Assembly: GCF_014202975.1 (NCBI RefSeq)
Contig: NZ_JACHHZ010000005.1
Location: forward strand, 1-64,000
DNA length: 64,000 nt
From: Povalibacter uvarum
GTDB lineage: Bacteria; Pseudomonadota; Gammaproteobacteria; Steroidobacterales; Steroidobacteraceae
Direction of reading: 5' to 3'
Below, one piece after another: positions 3,271 to 40,623 of the stretch. The number at the start of each line of letters is the position of its first letter. The first letter of the stretch is position 1. The notes beneath the pieces are model-generated. The model saw only the letters and a list, made by a program, of their open reading frames with translations. It had not been told where the DNA came from and searched no databases. Both the position numbers and the translations under genes were made by a program.

Positions 3271-4146
3271 ATGAGCTACACCGCCCGACGCATTGCGCAA
3301 CCCGACACCCTCCGGTTGCGCGGGCTCGATTTCCAGCTCTATCGCTGGCCGGGCGAAGATCCGGATCCGATCGTCCTCCTGCATGGCTGGGGCGACAGCG
3401 CGGAGACGTGGCAGTTCGTTGTCGATGAGCTGTCGCCACGCCGCACGCTGATCGCTTTCGATGCGCGAGGCTTCGGCCGCACCCAATGGCCGGATGACGG
3501 CTATTGGTTTCCTGACTACCTCGCCGATCTCGAGGCGATCCTGAACATCGTCGCTCCCGGCCGTCCGATCGACCTGGTCGGTCACAGCATGGGTGGCAAC
3601 GTCGCGATGATCTACGCCGGCGTGCGGCCGGACCGGATTCGCCGGTTGATCAACCTCGAGGGCGTCGGACTGACGCCGACGAGCGCCGATCAGGCGCCGG
3701 CGCGTTATCGGCAGTGGCTCGATGAAGTTGCCGACGGCAGCCGATTCGCAACGTATGACACTTTCGAACAGTTCGAGTCGGTACTGGCGCGGCGCAATCC
3801 GCGTACCTCGCCGGATCACATCGCCTTCATCGCCCGATCGTGGGCGCGCACCCGGGACGACGGCCGGATTGAACTTCGATCGGATCCGCGGCACAAACGA
3901 ATCAATCCCGTGCTGTATCAGCGCGACCAGGCCGAAGCCTGCTGGAACGCGATCGCCGCGCCCACGCTGCTGGTCATGGGAGCGAAGTCGGAATTTGCAG
4001 AGCGTCTGAAGCCGCAGATCGCTGAAGAGAAAATCGGCGCATTGCTACGCCATGTCAGGCTCGCAACGATCGAAGAGGCCGGGCACATGATGCATCACGA
4101 GCGGCCGGCGGCCGTGGCGGAACTGATCGAGACGTTTTTTCGTTGA
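3271..4146 (+). CDS. Alpha/beta-fold hydrolase
   Basis: A 291-residue soluble alpha/beta hydrolase. LHGWGDS (about 37-43) is the oxyanion-hole HG motif; GHSMGGN (about 107-113) is the nucleophile elbow with the catalytic Ser; EEAGHMMHHE near the C terminus holds the catalytic His; an acid in the MGAKSEF segment may complete the triad. It lacks a signal peptide, so it should be cytoplasmic. The substrate cannot be read from the sequence. It starts at the ATG at 3271, right after the terminator-like hairpin, and is followed by the small membrane protein gene. Confidence 0.85.
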   Translation: MSYTARRIAQPDTLRLRGLDFQLYRWPGEDPDPIVLLHGWGDSAETWQFVVDELSPRRTLIAFDARGFGRTQWPDDGYWFPDYLADLEAILNIVAPGRPIDLVGHSMGGNVAMIYAGVRPDRIRRLINLEGVGLTPTSADQAPARYRQWLDEVADGSRFATYDTFEQFESVLARRNPRTSPDHIAFIARSWARTRDDGRIELRSDPRHKRINPVLYQRDQAEACWNAIAAPTLLVMGAKSEFAERLKPQIAEEKIGALLRHVRLATIEEAGHMMHHERPAAVAELIETFFR

Positions 4147-4599: not shown

Positions 4600-5997
4600 T
4601 CACAACCAGTACGACAGCAAACTGCTCGCCGCCTCCTTGATCTTGTCCGACAGCGGCCGCTCGCGCCATTTCTCCAGATCGAGTTCGCGCGTGTCTTTCA
4701 GATCGCGTTCGAAAACAGCCTCGAGGCGCTGCGCGAACCCGCTCCCCACGACCACGGCGTTCACTTCGTTGTTGTGCAGAAAGCTGCGCATGTCCAGGTT
4801 GGCTGATCCGACCATCGAGAGTGCACTGTCGATCACCGCGGTCTTCGCGTGCAGCAGCGCGTATCGCTGTTCGTAGATGCGCACGCCGCCTTCGAGCAGC
4901 TCCTCGAAGGTGCTGCGTGACGCGTGGAGGATCAGGCCGGAGTCGGTGAAGCTCGGGACGATGAGTCTCACGTCGACGCCGCGTTTCGCTGCGGCGATCA
5001 GTGCCTGACGGAATTCCTTGTTCGGCGCGAAGTAGGCGTTCGTCAGCCAGAGGCGCTGCGTCGAGTGTTCGACCACCGCCAGGTAGGTTGCATAGATGCG
5101 GGTTTCCGTCTTGTCGTCCGCATCGGTGGCGACGGCGGCAACGAGCTCGCCGCCGGCAGGTTCCGGAGCAGGGAAATACAGGGGATTCGCGTTGTCGATC
5201 TTGCCGCCCGCGCGCGTCCACGTTGCGAGGAACAATGCCTGGAACTGCGTCGCGACCGGTCCTGCCATCTCGACGTGCGTGTCGCGCCAGGCCTCGTCGC
5301 GGCCGGTTTCGGGGCCGGGTCGAGTCGTCGACGAGCTTTCATACGTGCTGCTGATGTTGATGCCGCCGGTGAAGGCGATCCGCCCATCGACGACGACGAT
5401 CTTGCGGTGATCGCGGTTGTTGATCTTCCAGGGCAGCGGCGTGCGAACGGGATCGAGCGGGCGGAACTCGCGTACTTCGACGCCTGCTTCGCGCATGCGA
5501 TCGAAGAACGCCCCCGGCGTGGTCACGCTGCCGATCGCGTCGTAGATCACGCGCACTTCGAGGCCCGCACGCCGACGCGCGATCAACAGGTCGCTGAATT
5601 CGTGACCGACTTCGTCGTCCGCGAAAATGTACGTTTCGACGTGGACATGATGCTTGGCGGATTCGATGGACTTGCGGATCGCGGCGAGTGTCTGCGGACC
5701 GTCGATCAGCAGTGAGACCCGGTTGCCCGCGACCAGCGGCGCGTCCGCTTGCGCGCGAAAGGCGTCGATCAGTTCGCGGACGTGCTCATCGTCCTGTGCG
5801 GGCGCGAGACGTCTATCGACGAGTTGCTCGGCTTTCGCTTCGCTGAGCGCACCGCTCGCGGTCACGATGGCGGGCGCCACCGTTTCGCCCGGTACGACCG
5901 GGCGCGCCTTGGGTGTCGCGCAGCCGGTGCAAAGCAGCGCGACGATCAGCGTCGCGAATCGAAAGGGAATCCTGGAAGGAGAGAACACGTCGCGCAT
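4600..5997 (-). CDS. Phospholipase D-family lipoprotein (cardiolipin synthase-like)
   Basis: A 465-residue protein with two PLD catalytic motifs: HRKIVVVDG followed by TGGIN in the first half, and HAKTAVIDS followed by GSANLD in the second. This is the arrangement of ClsC-like cardiolipin synthases and other phosphatidyltransferases. The N terminus (LIVALLCTGC) is a lipoprotein signal with Cys at about residue 26, so it should be membrane-anchored outside the cytoplasm. The ATG at 5997 is preferred over an upstream TTG at 6039. Headgroup exchange on phospholipids is the likely activity; the exact substrate is inferred. Confidence 0.85.
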   Translation of the reverse strand: MRDVFSPSRIPFRFATLIVALLCTGCATPKARPVVPGETVAPAIVTASGALSEAKAEQLVDRRLAPAQDDEHVRELIDAFRAQADAPLVAGNRVSLLIDGPQTLAAIRKSIESAKHHVHVETYIFADDEVGHEFSDLLIARRRAGLEVRVIYDAIGSVTTPGAFFDRMREAGVEVREFRPLDPVRTPLPWKINNRDHRKIVVVDGRIAFTGGINISSTYESSSTTRPGPETGRDEAWRDTHVEMAGPVATQFQALFLATWTRAGGKIDNANPLYFPAPEPAGGELVAAVATDADDKTETRIYATYLAVVEHSTQRLWLTNAYFAPNKEFRQALIAAAKRGVDVRLIVPSFTDSGLILHASRSTFEELLEGGVRIYEQRYALLHAKTAVIDSALSMVGSANLDMRSFLHNNEVNAVVVGSGFAQRLEAVFERDLKDTRELDLEKWRERPLSDKIKEAASSLLSYWL

Positions 5998-6058: not shown

Positions 6059-6283
6059 CTAATCCTTCTTCAGCTCGTCGGCGGCGTCCTTTGCACCTTC
6101 GCGAACGTCATCGACGGCATCGTCGAGCTTGTTCGAGGTCGATTCCTGGCCGTTCTTCATCGTGTCGATCGCCTCGTCGATTTCTTCACCGGCCTGTTCG
6201 ACGGGCCCTTTGTTGTCGCACGCCGCGAGGCCGAGCATCGTTGTGCAGGCAAAGGCGGCGAGAAGTAGGGATCTGCTGCTCAT
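6059..6283 (-). CDS. Small stress-type lipoprotein
   Basis: A 74-residue protein: signal peptide ending in the lipobox LAAC (about residues 19-22), then a short, highly charged helical region rich in Asp, Glu and Lys. It resembles small entericidin- or YgdI-like envelope lipoproteins only in style; I do not recognise a specific family. The start is fixed by GGAGG six bases before the ATG. A perfect EcfG-type promoter lies upstream at 6394-6369 on the minus strand, so it is probably induced by the general stress response encoded next door. Confidence 0.8.
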   Translation of the reverse strand: MSSRSLLLAAFACTTMLGLAACDNKGPVEQAGEEIDEAIDTMKNGQESTSNKLDDAVDDVREGAKDAADELKKD

Positions 6284-6368: not shown

Positions 6369-6394
6369 AACGTCCACGCGCTTACCGAAGTTCC
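6369..6394 (-). promoter_or_regulatory. EcfG-type promoter for the small lipoprotein gene
   Basis: On the minus strand, GGAAC (6394-6390), 17 bases, then CGTT (6372-6369). This exactly matches the general-stress sigma consensus GGAAC-N16/17-CGTT. It is 86 bases from the ATG at 6283, in the right orientation. Confidence 0.75.
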
Positions 6395-6467
6395 GGCGCG
6401 ATGCATCGCTGTCGGTGATCTTCAGATCGCTGCTCGAGTTTTCGTCGCTTGACGCCGACCCGGTGCT

Positions 6468-6492
6468 GGAACCAAGGCGATCTTCGGACGTT
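6468..6492 (+). promoter_or_regulatory. EcfG-type promoter for the DUF1328 gene
   Basis: GGAAC (6468-6472), 16 bases, CGTT (6489-6492): a perfect match to the general-stress sigma consensus, 45 bases ahead of the ATG at 6537. An imperfect minus-strand partner (GGAAC 6494-6490, GGTT 6473-6470) overlaps it. Confidence 0.75.
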
Positions 6493-6536
6493 CCGTCGCA
6501 GAGCGGTTCATTCGCAGTTCATTGCCGGAGGTTGTC

Positions 6537-6710
6537 ATGTTGTCGTGGGCACTTACGTTCTTCATCGTCGCGATCATCGCGGCCGTGCTGGGTTTCAGCA
6601 GCATTGCTGGCGCTGCAGCAGGCATAGCGAAGATCCTGTTCTTCATCTTCCTGGTGCTGACTCTGGTCGCACTGGTGGCGGGCGCGATGCGCGGAAGACC
6701 ACCGGTTTGA
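6537..6710 (+). CDS. DUF1328 (YtjA-like) small membrane protein
   Basis: A 57-residue, almost wholly hydrophobic protein with two membrane helices (about 3-23 and 29-49) separated by [11 protein letters not shown], ending AMRGRPPV. This is the pattern of DUF1328/YtjA, short inner-membrane proteins of unknown function often under stress control. GGAGG precedes the ATG at 6537, which decides the start over an upstream TTG. It has an EcfG-type promoter and is divergent from the small lipoprotein, so both are likely general-stress genes. Confidence 0.85.
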
Positions 6711-6773
6711 CGAGAAGGCAGCTAGCTAGAAGTCAGCTAGCCGGCTAGCCATTAGCTGGTAGCCAGATGAAGA

Positions 6774-6802
6774 GAAGGGGCCGAATGGCCCCTTCTTTTT
6801 TT
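6774..6802 (+). terminator. Rho-independent terminator after DUF1328
   Basis: GAAGGGGCC, loop GAAT, GGCCCCTTC, then seven T residues: a 9-bp perfect stem with a U tract on the plus strand. Confidence 0.92.
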
Positions 6803-6830
6803 GCGTCCAGTGTTGACGCTGCGTCGGCGC

Positions 6831-6859
6831 AAAAAAGAGCGGGGCATTTGCCCCGCTCT
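6831..6859 (-). terminator. Rho-independent terminator after phyR
   Basis: Read on the minus strand: AGAGCGGGGC, short loop, GCCCCGCTCT, then a run of T. This is the end of the minus-strand phyR transcript, 45 bases past its stop. Confidence 0.92.
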
Positions 6860-6903
6860 TAGTTCTGAGCTAGTTGCTAGCCGGCTAGTGGCTAGCTGGC
6901 TTT

Positions 6904-7680
6904 CTACGCGAAGAGCAGCGCCTGGCTAATGGCGACTCTCACCGTCTCCGGCACGAACGGCTTCGTCACCAGGAACGTCGGTTCCGGTCGCTCACCCGTC
7001 AGCAGTCGTTCCGGGTAAGCGGTGATGAAGACGATCGGGACGTCGACTTCGCTCAGGATCTGGCGCACCGCGTCGATGCCGGAGCTGCCGTCGGCGAGTT
7101 TGATGTCGGCGAGGACGAGCTCAGGGCTCGTGCGGCGGGCTTCGCGCACTGCTTCATCGCGCGTCGTTGCTGTCGCGATCACCTTGTGACCCATCTCTCG
7201 CACGATGCTCTGCAGGTCGAGGGAAATGATCGGTTCGTCCTCGATGATGAGGACCTTCATGCTCGGCTGGCTCGAAATTTCTCGCACTGCCTGGCCGGTC
7301 ATGCTCTTCACGTCGTCTTCGGACACCCCGAGGATCTTCGCGGCGTCGCTCGTGCCGAAGCCTTCCATCGCTGTGAGCAGCAAAGCCTGGCGATGAGCGG
7401 GCGTGAGTTCTTTCAGCCGCTTCTCGACGTTATCGGCGGCGACGGGGCCGGACCCGGCGACAGGACGCAGGTCGAGATTCGTGGTGTCCCACAGGCGGTG
7501 GAACAGTCGATAGAGCGCAACGCGCGGCGAGGCATCGGCGCCGAGGACCGAGGTGTCAGCCACGATCGCTTCGAGGCACGCTCTCACATAGGCGTCCCCG
7601 CTTTGCTGGGTACCGGTGAGCGCCCGGGCATACCGGCGCAGGTAGGGTAGGTGCTCGGCAATCGCATGAGCTAGAGCCAT
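6904..7680 (-). CDS. phyR: PhyR general stress response regulator (anti-anti-sigma factor)
   Basis: A 258-residue protein with the diagnostic PhyR layout: an ECF-sigma-like domain (about 1-135) lacking DNA-binding use, then a receiver domain (141-258). Receiver landmarks: acidic pair E147/D148, phosphoacceptor D192 in ADIKLADG, the PERLLTGERPEP segment typical of PhyR, and K240 in TKPF. When phosphorylated, PhyR binds NepR and releases EcfG. The ATG at 7680 has a good GGAG site; an ATG at 7716 would add 12 residues. It diverges from nepR-ecfG. I find no EcfG consensus in its own upstream region. Confidence 0.93.
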   Translation of the reverse strand: MALAHAIAEHLPYLRRYARALTGTQQSGDAYVRACLEAIVADTSVLGADASPRVALYRLFHRLWDTTNLDLRPVAGSGPVAADNVEKRLKELTPAHRQALLLTAMEGFGTSDAAKILGVSEDDVKSMTGQAVREISSQPSMKVLIIEDEPIISLDLQSIVREMGHKVIATATTRDEAVREARRTSPELVLADIKLADGSSGIDAVRQILSEVDVPIVFITAYPERLLTGERPEPTFLVTKPFVPETVRVAISQALLFA

Positions 7681-7798
7681 GATTACTCCATCGTTCTTTG
7701 TCGCTGAGAAATGCATGTCACTTTACCGTGCGCATGCACCCGCGCCCCGCGGACGTGACGCTAGTATGTATGAGGGGTCGGGAATGTTCCCTGACCGT

Positions 7799-7824
7799 GG
7801 AACTTTTTCCTGGTCGCCGGCGTT
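7799..7824 (+). promoter_or_regulatory. EcfG-type autoregulatory promoter of nepR-ecfG
   Basis: GGAAC (7799-7803), 17 bases, CGTT (7821-7824): an exact general-stress promoter match, 72 bases ahead of the nepR start. It implies positive autoregulation by EcfG. Confidence 0.82.
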
Positions 7825-7895: not shown

Positions 7896-8078
7896 ATGAG
7901 CGAAAAAATCAGGCCAGATCAGGCGACTCCCGCTTCGGGTGACCCTCCTGCCGAGCAGGTGCCCGATTGGCTGGGCAATCGTCTGCGCCGCATGTTCTCC
8001 GACGTGATGGAAGAACCCGTTCCGGACGAGTTCAAGGCATTGCTGAAGCAGCTCGAAGACAAGGAGCGCGGGTCCTGA
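7896..8078 (+). CDS. nepR: NepR anti-sigma factor
   Basis: A 60-residue protein whose second half matches the NepR core: LGNRLRRMFSDVMEEPVPDE then FKALLKQLED. NepR holds EcfG inactive until phosphorylated PhyR takes its place as the binding partner. The N-terminal 25 residues are polar and disordered-looking, as is usual. No clear Shine-Dalgarno precedes the ATG. It lies 17 bp before ecfG, in the order nepR-ecfG found in classical loci. Confidence 0.92.
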   Translation: MSEKIRPDQATPASGDPPAEQVPDWLGNRLRRMFSDVMEEPVPDEFKALLKQLEDKERGS

Positions 8079-8095: not shown

Positions 8096-8668
8096 ATGGC
8101 CGCCCAAGACCCTTTTCTCGACCAAGTCACTGCCTTGCTGCCGGCGCTGCGTGCGTTCGGCCGCTCCTTGTGCGGCGATCCGGCGCGCGCTGACGATCTC
8201 GTGCAGGACACTGTGCTCAAGGCATGGACCAACCGCGAACAATTTCAGTCCGGCAGCAACCTGAAGGCCTGGCTGTTCACGATCCTGCGCAATTGTTACT
8301 ACTCGGAACTGCGCCATCGCAAATTCGAAGTCGAAGACCCTGAGGGTGTCTGCGCGGCGCAGTTGTCCGTCGCTCCCATCCACGATGCCCGGCTGCATCT
8401 GCGCGATCTCAACCGGGCGCTGCAGGAGTTGCCGAACGATCAGCGCGAAGCGCTCGTTCTGGTCTGCGCGACGGGACTCTCTTATGAAGAGGCGGCCGAC
8501 GTCTGCCAGGTGGCGGTCGGTACGATCAAGAGCCGTATCGCGCGGGCGCGCGACCGGCTGATCGAGCTCCTGGGCGAGGATGCGGCCTATGTGACGGATC
8601 CCGCTTCGGCCACGGAACTTCGCAACGACGGTGTTACGATTTCTGCAGGTCGCGCCAAGGCATCCTGA
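8096..8668 (+). CDS. ecfG: EcfG-family general stress sigma factor
   Basis: A 190-residue ECF sigma factor. The sigma-2 region (LLPALRAFGRSLCGDPARAD then DLVQDTVLKAWTN and LKAWLFTILRN) and the HRKFEVED stretch are EcfG-like; sigma-4 follows (LPNDQREALVLV, then YEEAADVCQVAVGTIKSRI). There is an extra tail of about 30 residues. The ATG at 8096 sits 17 bp after the nepR stop and gives the family length. It should read GGAAC-N16/17-CGTT promoters, four of which are visible in this window. Confidence 0.92.
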   Translation: MAAQDPFLDQVTALLPALRAFGRSLCGDPARADDLVQDTVLKAWTNREQFQSGSNLKAWLFTILRNCYYSELRHRKFEVEDPEGVCAAQLSVAPIHDARLHLRDLNRALQELPNDQREALVLVCATGLSYEEAADVCQVAVGTIKSRIARARDRLIELLGEDAAYVTDPASATELRNDGVTISAGRAKAS

Positions 8669-8701: not shown

Positions 8702-10471
8702 ATGAAGTATCAAAAGCCTGATGCCGCGCCGCGCCGCTGGTGGGGGCGCAACGCCGGTCTGCGTCCGCGACTGGTGCTGATCGTCGGTATCGCCATGCTG
8801 GCGCCCGGCGTGCTCGCCGTGCTGCAGGCGATCTCCGGCTACAACAGCAGCGTCCGCTACCTGCAGCAGAATCTCGCCCAGGCCGCGCAGCTCGCGGCCA
8901 ACGAAGAAGAGAACATGATCTCGGCGTCACGCGAGATCCTCACGAGCCTCGCGGCTCATCCCGATGTGCGGGTCGGCCAGGGCGCCGCATGCCGTCGCGC
9001 ACTGCAGAGAGCCATCGGCGGCCTCGATCAGTACGCCGGCGCGATGGTGCTCAACGCCGATGGCGTGACGACCTGTTCCTCGAGCGCCATGAAGTCGGTC
9101 ATCACCGTGGCGAATCAATCCTGGTTCAAGGATGTGATGTCGGGTGATGCATTCGTCGTGAGCGACCTCGTGCAAAGCGAATGGCTGGACGAGTGGGGCA
9201 TGGCGACGGCCGTGCCGCTGGTCGATGACACCGGCGTGATCAGCGGCTCCGTCGCGCTTTTCATCGGCCTGGACTGGGTCACTCGCCGTTACCAGCATGC
9301 CGCGTCGGATGGAAATACGGCACTCGCGCTGCTCGACAGCAAGGGTGATCCCATTACGTCGAAGGGCGACAACTCGCCGTTGCTGGAGGGATTGCCCCGT
9401 CCCGATCTGATCGACGAGCACCTGCGTGCACGCACGCAGACATTCACCGCTCGCGGGCGCGACGGCACGTGGCGCCTCTATGCAATCAGTCCGCTGCTGG
9501 ATGGACGCATCTTCGTGATTCTCGGCACGCCGGTACTGGCGGCGATGGGCCCGCTGGCATTGCAGGTGGCGTGGGGCGTGCTCACACCGCTGCTCATGTG
9601 GGGGCTCGCTATCGCCGTCGTGTGGTTCGGCATCGAACACTTCGTCGTTCGCTGGATCACCTACCTCGATCGCATCACCTCGGCGTACGCAGCGGGTCGT
9701 CATACCGTGCGGCCGGAGCGTGTCGAAGCGGCACCCGCCGAAATCCGCAGTCTCGGCGAAACGTTCGGCCGCATGGCCGATACGATTTCATCGCGCGAAG
9801 CGGAGCTGCGCGAGTCGCTCGCCCAGAAGGAAATCCTGGTGCGGGAGATTCATCACCGCGTGAAGAACAACCTGCAGCTCGTCATGAGCCTGCTCAACCT
9901 GCATGCGCGCCGGATCCGCGATCCTCGCGCCGAAGCGGCGTTCGCCGAGGCCCGCAGCAGAATCAATGCGCTCGCCACGCTGCACCGGCGTCTCTACGAG
10001 TCGGAGAATCTGCAGGAAGTGGATCTGCGCTGGTTCCTCAAGGATCTTTGCGCGGAGCTTCGGCGCGGCGGGCTCGCAGGCACTCAGGATGTCGATCTCA
10101 CCGTGACGGCAGAGGAGGAAGTGATCGGCCCTGACGTCGCCGTGCCGCTCGGTCTGCTGGTGACCGAAGCGATCACGAATGCGTACAAGCACGCGTTCAC
10201 AGGCGTCGACCGCGGACTCATCGAAGTGATCGTCAGGCGCGAGTCGGATACGCAGTTGCTGCTGCTCGTCCGCGACAACGGTCGGGGTTACGACCCGGCG
10301 AGCGAAACGGAACCGGGCGGACTGGGCCGTTCGCTCATCGATGCCTTCGTGCGTCAGCTTCACGGCGAGCTCGAGATCAACTCGGATCAGGGGGTTGAAA
10401 TGAGGGTGAGATTCCGGGCACCGCTCGCCCGCGTCAGCCAGCCGCAGAAGGAGGATCAGTTGGTGCAGTGA
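8702..10471 (+). CDS. Membrane HisKA_2-family sensor histidine kinase (probable PhyR kinase)
   Basis: A 589-residue sensor kinase. Membrane helix about 22-44, a periplasmic sensor of about 240 residues resembling dCache, helices about 275-312, a HAMP-like linker, then the HisKA_2 dimerisation box EIHHRVKNNLQLV (H384/H385) and a HATPase domain with the N box TEAITNAYKHA and G box VRDNGRGYD. Kinases of the HisKA_2/HWE group are the usual PhyR phosphodonors. The gene starts 33 bp after ecfG, so it is probably in the same operon. The signal sensed is unknown. Confidence 0.9.
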   Translation: MKYQKPDAAPRRWWGRNAGLRPRLVLIVGIAMLAPGVLAVLQAISGYNSSVRYLQQNLAQAAQLAANEEENMISASREILTSLAAHPDVRVGQGAACRRALQRAIGGLDQYAGAMVLNADGVTTCSSSAMKSVITVANQSWFKDVMSGDAFVVSDLVQSEWLDEWGMATAVPLVDDTGVISGSVALFIGLDWVTRRYQHAASDGNTALALLDSKGDPITSKGDNSPLLEGLPRPDLIDEHLRARTQTFTARGRDGTWRLYAISPLLDGRIFVILGTPVLAAMGPLALQVAWGVLTPLLMWGLAIAVVWFGIEHFVVRWITYLDRITSAYAAGRHTVRPERVEAAPAEIRSLGETFGRMADTISSREAELRESLAQKEILVREIHHRVKNNLQLVMSLLNLHARRIRDPRAEAAFAEARSRINALATLHRRLYESENLQEVDLRWFLKDLCAELRRGGLAGTQDVDLTVTAEEEVIGPDVAVPLGLLVTEAITNAYKHAFTGVDRGLIEVIVRRESDTQLLLLVRDNGRGYDPASETEPGGLGRSLIDAFVRQLHGELEINSDQGVEMRVRFRAPLARVSQPQKEDQLVQ

Positions 10472-39907: not shown

Positions 39908-40516
39908 TCAGAACCGCCACGCGCCCGAGAGCCAGATCGCGTCGGCATCATCGACATCGTTGGAGTCGATCTTCTCGTACTCGAGTCGGGCATGCAGGTG
40001 CTCGAAGAACGTCGCACCGACGCCGACGCCGTAGAGGAAGTCCTCGCCGCTGTCGCTCGAGCTGAACACGTCGCCGCCCAGATCGTCGAAGTCGGCCGTG
40101 ACGTCCACGTCATAGAAGTAGTAGCCGGCCTTCGCGAACAATTCGACCGGACCCAGCGGCAGCGTGCCGATGACGTACGGTGCGAAGCCGCTCAGCTCGA
40201 TCTGGTAGTCGCCGCTCGAACCGTTGGCTTCGAAGGTGTCGGACGGACCGCCGAAGTCGATGTATGCGGCTTCGACCGAGATATAGGGGTTGAAGCGGTA
40301 GCCGGCGAAAAGCTTCCAGGAAGTATCGTCGTCATCGAGCCGCTCGATCGCCTCGTCGGTGTCGTCGACGTCGTCGATCTGCACGTTGAATTGACCTACG
40401 CCGCCACCGACGTAGAAGCCTTTCTCGTTCTCTGCATGCGCTGCCGCGGTCCATGTGCCCGTCAGTGCGAACAACGTTGCTGTTGCCAGAAGTGGATTCA
40501 TGCTGGGTCGACTCAT
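39908..40516 (-). CDS. Outer-membrane beta-barrel protein
   Basis: 202 residues: signal peptide ending AAAHAEN (about 29), then alternating amphipathic strands (GFYVGGGVGQFNVQID, TSWKLFAGYRFNPYISVEAA, LFAKAGYYFYDVDV, ARLEYEKID) with acidic loops and the C-terminal aromatic end LSGAWRF that outer-membrane insertion needs. It resembles the small OmpA-like/OmpW-like barrels. AAAGGAG lies seven bases ahead of the ATG at 40516. A perfect EcfG-type promoter upstream suggests general stress induction. Confidence 0.87.
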   Translation of the reverse strand: MSRPSMNPLLATATLFALTGTWTAAAHAENEKGFYVGGGVGQFNVQIDDVDDTDEAIERLDDDDTSWKLFAGYRFNPYISVEAAYIDFGGPSDTFEANGSSGDYQIELSGFAPYVIGTLPLGPVELFAKAGYYFYDVDVTADFDDLGGDVFSSSDSGEDFLYGVGVGATFFEHLHARLEYEKIDSNDVDDADAIWLSGAWRF

Positions 40517-40598: not shown

Positions 40599-40623
40599 AA
40601 CGCGCGGAGTGCAATGCGGTTCC
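40599..40623 (-). promoter_or_regulatory. EcfG-type promoter for the outer-membrane barrel gene
   Basis: On the minus strand, GGAAC (40623-40619), 16 bases, CGTT (40602-40599): an exact match to the general-stress sigma consensus, 83 bases ahead of the ATG. Confidence 0.75.

Follow-up and report, generated by a model that had tools for sequence, protein, structure and literature searches.

Why would the genome of a gammaproteobacterium carry, next to a phyR gene, two exact and divergently oriented matches to the promoter motif of EcfG, the sigma factor of the alphaproteobacterial general stress response (GSR)? The window, by which we mean the whole stretch of 64,000 nucleotides that was analysed, comes from Povalibacter uvarum. 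This source genome belongs to the Steroidobacteraceae within the Gammaproteobacteria, and the system is therefore not limited to Alphaproteobacteria. The NCBI taxonomy likewise places Steroidobacter in the Gammaproteobacteria.

The usual picture of the GSR assigns it to RpoS in other proteobacteria and to EcfG in Alphaproteobacteria. Indeed, passages of a 2013 paper restrict EcfG to Alphaproteobacteria (PMC3892343), and passages of a 2021 review still treat it as alphaproteobacterial (PMC8103513). In the open-access literature that was searched, with subscription literature mostly outside the search, we found no gammaproteobacterium reported to have PhyR, NepR or EcfG, and no paper that linked EcfG to Steroidobacter or ECF15 to Gammaproteobacteria. 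The predicted promoters described here would be ordinary in an alphaproteobacterium, and it is the gammaproteobacterial host that makes them notable. From the sequence comparisons presented below, we consider it highly probable that the paired sites are divergent sigma-EcfG promoters belonging to a complete alpha-type GSR in a Steroidobacter-group gammaproteobacterium.

Two predicted promoters back to back in a 253-bp gap

An earlier note on this DNA had claimed an exact divergent pair of EcfG sites, and both sites lie where they were claimed to be, with spacers of 17 and 16 nucleotides. The region contains the following features.

4600–5997, minus strand: phospholipase-D (PLD) family gene (PLDc_2), 61 bp behind the lipoprotein gene and on the same strand
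6059–6283, minus strand: small lipoprotein gene (open reading frame; lipobox LAAC read from the sequence)
6369–6394, minus strand: predicted sigma-EcfG promoter facing the lipoprotein gene, exact match to GGAAC-N17-CGTT
6468–6492, plus strand: predicted sigma-EcfG promoter facing the DUF1328 gene, exact match to GGAAC-N16-CGTT
6470–6494, minus strand: near-match GGAAC-N16-GGTT, overlapping the DUF1328 promoter
6537–6710, plus strand: DUF1328 small membrane protein gene (PF07043, 57.4 bits)

The expectation for exact sites in this gap is 0.0038, and the Poisson probability of at least two is p ~7e-6. The start of the DUF1328 gene is an ATG with GGAGG ahead of it, and was chosen also from relatives. 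Searches with Pfam and with curated NCBI models returned no confident family for the lipoprotein. The PLD gene is probably co-transcribed with the lipoprotein gene, and would then be read from the lipoprotein-side promoter.

A near-match overlapping the second site on the opposite strand had also been pointed out, and it is present with one mismatch, running from 6494 to 6470. It exists because CC comes after CGTT in the DUF1328-side site. This CC is missing in most relatives, the near-match is not kept in most of them, and it is probably a by-product rather than a promoter. Between the DUF1328 gene and phyR (window 6720–6905), short repeat runs resembling TAGCTAG/GCTAGC lie around two apparent terminator hairpins.

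The adjoining PhyR-NepR-EcfG-kinase module

The pair had been described as lying next to phyR. Profile searches identify a phyR-nepR-ecfG-HisKA_2 kinase cluster beside it, arranged as follows.

6904–7680, minus strand: phyR (PRK09191/PhyR, 359 bits with a cut-off of 240)
7896–8078, plus strand: nepR (PF18557, 54.6 bits with a cut-off of 25.7)
8096–8668, plus strand: ecfG (Sigma70_r2 and r4_2; 5uxx_A, 165 bits)
8702–10471, plus strand: HisKA_2 histidine kinase gene, PhyK-like (PF07568, 91.4 bits)

The PhyR protein carries both sigma-like and receiver domains (PF22029, PF22233 and Response_reg) and matches the solved PhyR 3n0r from end to end. NepR, which is encoded beside EcfG, matches the NepR chain 3t0y_B and scores 38.3 of the 100 needed to reach the curated NCBI model NF051865. 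EcfG lies below the curated NCBI sigma subfamily cut-offs (220 of 270 and 208 of 219), none of the models used being specific to ECF15, and in a tree its clade groups with alphaproteobacterial EcfG, apart from actinobacterial ECFs, at 100/100, as befits an EcfG-type factor. The kinase bears the HisKA_2 domain and scores 372 bits with the PhyK model NF051872, below that model's cut-off of 750. The motif GGAAC-N16/17-CGTT stands before nepR-ecfG and before the genes of the predicted regulon.

The alphaproteobacterial GSR (PhyR-NepR-EcfG, with EcfG in group ECF15) uses the same proteins, and the gene order phyR / nepR-ecfG-kinase is common to the window and to Glycocaulis and Hyphobacterium (L052, L053). 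Promoter word and spacing are the same as well, and passages of a study of R. etli give the EcfG1 motif as GGAAC-N16-CGTT (PMC3892343). Autoregulation of nepR-ecfG, which is predicted here, is a further shared trait, and a DUF1328 gene near ecfG with a preceding site recurs in three alphaproteobacterial loci (L043, L048 and L050).

By homology with the systems that have been studied, the HisKA_2 kinase would phosphorylate PhyR, and PhyR would draw NepR off EcfG. Free EcfG would then transcribe nepR-ecfG, the lipoprotein gene (probably with the PLD gene) and the DUF1328 gene, and would also read some tens of other genes concerned with the envelope, DNA repair, oxidative defence and signalling. 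By analogy, we infer that the predicted EcfG promoters are transcribed and are induced by stress.

Conservation of the sites among relatives

Site conservation was assessed in 13 loci, comprising the window and 12 others (L031–L042), and the window is included in each of the following counts. On the lipoprotein side, all 13 loci have an exact match at the corresponding position, with a spacer of 16 or 17, and the nepR-side site is likewise exact in all 13. The DUF1328-side site is exact in 12 of the 13, L042 being without it. The lipoprotein itself was found behind its site in 12 of the 13 loci, weakly in L042; in L039, no lipoprotein was found, and the lipoprotein-side site lies directly before the PLD gene. 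Spacer sequences have diverged among the loci and spacer length alternates between 16 and 17. Therefore, the conserved part consists of the two words GGAAC and CGTT.

The motif also follows the presence of PhyR. For all 10 DUF1328 genes in eight PhyR-less genomes of the family, the 350 bp upstream proved free of the motif, also when one mismatch was allowed, whereas the same scan of genomes with PhyR finds it before DUF1328 in three of three.

Placement of the motif across genomes

All 134 exact sites in the source genome were examined with their flanking DNA, using a custom hexamer gene caller that trims some starts. As the control, we used the same GGAAC and CGTT words at spacings of 6–15 and 18–30 in the same DNA. 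The reversed pattern was rejected as a control: across 40 family genomes, the ratio of motif to reversed pattern varies with base composition, from well under to well over one. By plain count, the motif is weakly represented in the source genome (134 matches versus 92 for the reversed pattern), and most family genomes show no genome-wide enrichment over that pattern.

Placement is far more informative. Outside genes lie 60 of the 134 sites, though only 12.4% of the examined DNA is non-coding, versus 12 of 80 at control spacings (Fisher p=6e-6); equal motif density in coding DNA was what the earlier note had named as counting against its reading. Of these 60 sites, 52 face a start within 250 bp, which makes 52 of 134 versus 4 of 80 at control spacings (Fisher p=7e-9). 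Orientation matters also, with 24 sites facing a start in the promoter direction only and five in the opposite direction only. The other 74 sites are inside genes, and therefore those are probably chance occurrences for the most part.

A second genome, that of S. gossypii, behaves in the same way. Among 99 of its 142 sites, 61 are outside genes (versus 5 of 37 at control spacings) and 50 face a start (versus 2 of 37), with Fisher p between 6e-6 and 7e-9. In the same 99, 29 face a start in the promoter direction only and four in the opposite direction only.

Within the window, further sites and their targets are as follows.

4119–4144, plus strand: exact match within the last part of a hydrolase gene; a PGPGW membrane-protein gene follows 33 bp further on
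7799–7824, plus strand: predicted sigma-EcfG promoter facing nepR-ecfG, GGAAC-N17-CGTT, kept in 13 of 13 loci
39908–40516, minus strand: OmpA-like outer-membrane barrel gene (PF13505, PF01389), target of the 40599 site
40599–40623, minus strand: predicted sigma-EcfG promoter facing the OmpA-like gene, exact match to GGAAC-N16-CGTT

Four exact matches, all properly oriented upstream of genes, had been proposed for the window. This description fits the four intergenic sites (6369, 6468, 7799 and 40599), each of which faces a start correctly, but the window total is six, because the sites at 4119 (plus strand) and 5140 (minus strand) are inside coding DNA. The 4119 site is kept only in L031, and coding constraint alone could explain that. 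The accompanying estimate of about 0.1 chance matches was sound: 0.105 are expected in the window's 6,916 non-coding bases, and the Poisson probability of at least four intergenic exact matches in the window is p ~5e-6. When the whole window is subjected to dinucleotide shuffles, 0.96 exact matches are expected, versus the six present.

Shared targets and predicted regulon content

The source genome has 56 targets, four of them served by sites that lie within genes. Nineteen of them gave a BLASTP match to S. gossypii targets, and two of these (L137 and L169, 23% and 27% identical) were set aside as likely paralogues. Consequently, at least 17 of the 56 correspond to homologous targets in S. 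gossypii, as judged from 99 of its 142 sites. Fewer than one shared target would be expected by chance, assuming about 6,500 S. gossypii genes, which is a rough guess for 7.1 Mb. The shared targets are the lipoprotein, DUF1328, nepR, the OmpA-like gene (L264 in S. gossypii), LigD, the divergent DUF3617 gene, DUF883, DUF4398, two EF-hand proteins, a CHASE3 kinase and its divergent neighbor, a PLD protein, and four without a family.

A Pfam search covering 43 of the 56 targets revealed additional proteins in the source genome, including an Fe/Mn superoxide dismutase, a general stress protein 26-like protein (PF16242), Host_attach, MgtC, hemerythrin and glyoxalase. Passages of a study of the S. 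melonis EcfG regulon list Ku, general stress protein 26, a host-cell attachment protein and outer-membrane proteins, types that overlap with the LigD, PF16242, PF10116 and OmpA-like targets found here (PMC6599016).

A conserved element without CGTT facing phyR

One component of the module lacks the expected site. In PhyR-NepR-EcfG systems, an EcfG promoter before phyR is common, if not universal. At this position the window holds the following.

7762–7790, minus strand: phyR-facing element, GGAAC-N17-CATACTA, with the -35 word kept and CGTT absent

No exact EcfG site with CGTT faces phyR in any of the 13 Steroidobacter-group loci, and all 13 instead have GGAAC-N16/17-CATA-N-TA facing phyR, with its GGAAC located 8–9 bp from the -35 word before nepR. 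Besides the gammaproteobacterial host, this is what distinguishes the present system from the alphaproteobacterial GSR, in which five of the six loci examined have an exact EcfG site before phyR (nepR starts having been set roughly). The element might be read by a different sigma factor, or by EcfG itself despite a changed -10 word. Perhaps phyR has thereby been taken out of strong EcfG feedback.

PhyR and RpoS among relatives

The EcfG loci nearest to that of the window come from Steroidobacter, Peristeroidobacter and other gammaproteobacterial records (81–90% identity over the best segment), and alphaproteobacterial EcfG loci come next (47–57% identity). The sigma-like domain of PhyR scores above 70 bits in two of 369 genomes of the class (the source genome and G003), both of this genus, with the others at 41 bits or less. 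In the family, it does so in three of 60 genomes (these two and G410), all again of this genus. At a threshold of 1e-35, a search with the full PhyR protein matches 92 of 398 genomes of the phylum, which are the source genome and 91 outside the class, with no other in the class. Among 14 genomes of the genus, full-length PhyR is present in 12 (77–100% identity), G434 has residues 1–141, and G028 retains decayed pieces.

PF22233 alone was rejected as a PhyR marker because it is too loose. It matches in 122 of 369 class genomes at E<=0.001, 50 of which reach the cut-off, and the matches of 41 bits or less, in all but the source genome and G003, resemble ordinary sigma region 4. In the family, 24 of 60 genomes reach the PF22233 cut-off, only three of them with more than 41 bits.

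The cut-off of the RpoS model is reached in none of the 60 family genomes, versus 125 of 185 class genomes and also E. coli. In most family genomes, the best match to this model scores about 285–295 bits in a frame of more than 600 amino acids, which we call RpoD-like, and the next, in a frame of around 300 amino acids that we call RpoH-like, scores about 150 bits. In another family of the same order, a protein from one genome falls just under the RpoS cut-off (374.9 of 378.7). Most sampled family members appear to be without both RpoS and PhyR, and therefore RpoS was probably lost before the alpha-type switch was gained.

DUF1328 is a type of cargo shared with the RpoS response: according to passages of a Salmonella study, this protein (YtjA) is among the small proteins under tight sigma-S control (PMC5437024). 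Unlike in that response, the DUF1328 gene of the source genome has a predicted EcfG promoter, and no sampled genome of the family reaches the RpoS cut-off. The EcfG system may stand in for the missing RpoS response, but the case is circumstantial, as most of the family members sampled seem to have neither.

A decaying switch in one genome of the genus

The genome G028 belongs to the same genus and comprises one contig of 3.5 Mb, in which phyR is in pieces. At about 196000–197200 of this contig (G028:C1; L199 8021–9254), phyR is decayed, nepR was not found, and ecfG is kept, its frame retained with 79% identity. The 16-kb stretch examined yields no match to nepR or DUF1328 and no credible match to the lipoprotein, and DUF1328 was not found anywhere in the G028 genome. 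By plain genome-wide count, uncorrected for composition, G028 has 32 motif matches, versus 76 in the equally large genome G003, and this low number would fit a loss of the regulon.

Alternative explanations and origin

A nine-base pattern may recur by chance in GC-rich DNA, and the abundance of matches inside genes, together with totals that in many relatives are no better than those of the reversed pattern, suggests that such occurrences contribute. Nevertheless, it is scarcely credible that the four intergenic sites of the window, the pair among them, are of this kind, given the conservation seen in 12 or 13 of 13 loci, a placement that is specific to spacing and orientation, and the targets shared between species. 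It is also improbable that the sites serve a different ECF sigma factor, such as one like RpoE, whose -35 word is similar. The word GGAAC is common to several ECF groups, and E. coli RpoE targets GGAACTT in the passages of PMC8103513 concerned. However, both the -10 word and the spacing of 16/17 agree with what passages of PMC3892343 give for EcfG, the site before nepR-ecfG is present in every locus sampled, DUF1328 is motif-free in the eight PhyR-less genomes, and matches are fewer where phyR has decayed. The footprints, the genome-wide placement, the second genome and the motif-free relatives without PhyR all argue for the proposal in the earlier note that the lipoprotein and DUF1328 genes have EcfG promoters.

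The alpha-type GSR was probably acquired horizontally in a lineage apparently without RpoS. The Steroidobacter clade is recovered at 100/100 in a PhyR tree of 52 rows and at 95/94 in an EcfG tree of 30 rows, neither of which places the donor. If the module were instead an old proteobacterial inheritance kept by this genus alone, the Steroidobacter clade need not fall among Alphaproteobacteria, and the EcfG tree does not nest it there; the branch with 14 alphaproteobacterial rows on one side has support of 25/8, which decides nothing. We regard this explanation as unlikely, because PhyR is limited to one genus in both the class and family samples, and one gain is therefore likelier than many independent losses.

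Horizontal gain leads to a broader account, toward which we lean slightly. A genus whose family had already lost RpoS may have taken up the alpha-type switch and built around it a regulon of about 40–50 promoters that includes genes of a type under sigma-S in enterics, with phyR removed from the usual EcfG feedback by a change in the -10 word and with the switch since decaying in one genome, where motif sites are few. If this is true, then the whole GSR master switch can be transplanted between classes. The family would also offer a natural case for the gain and loss of a regulon, as it includes members with neither switch and one genome in which the switch is decaying. Direct testing is possible in named, cultured relatives, which include S. 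gossypii, S. agaridevorans and Peristeroidobacter soli.

Other arrangements of sites

Two additional site clusters in the source genome deserve mention. In the gap between ligD and the DUF3617 gene (L115 1601–1628; C2:316628-316655), one site on each strand overlaps the other with an offset of two bases, and this overlapping pair is kept in S. gossypii too (L220). The resulting near-palindrome may promote transcription in both directions. Elsewhere (L126; C2:869397-869493), a response-regulator gene and a multi-HAMP gene flank three exact sites that lie within 100 bp of one another, and this triple site may place a further signalling input under EcfG control.
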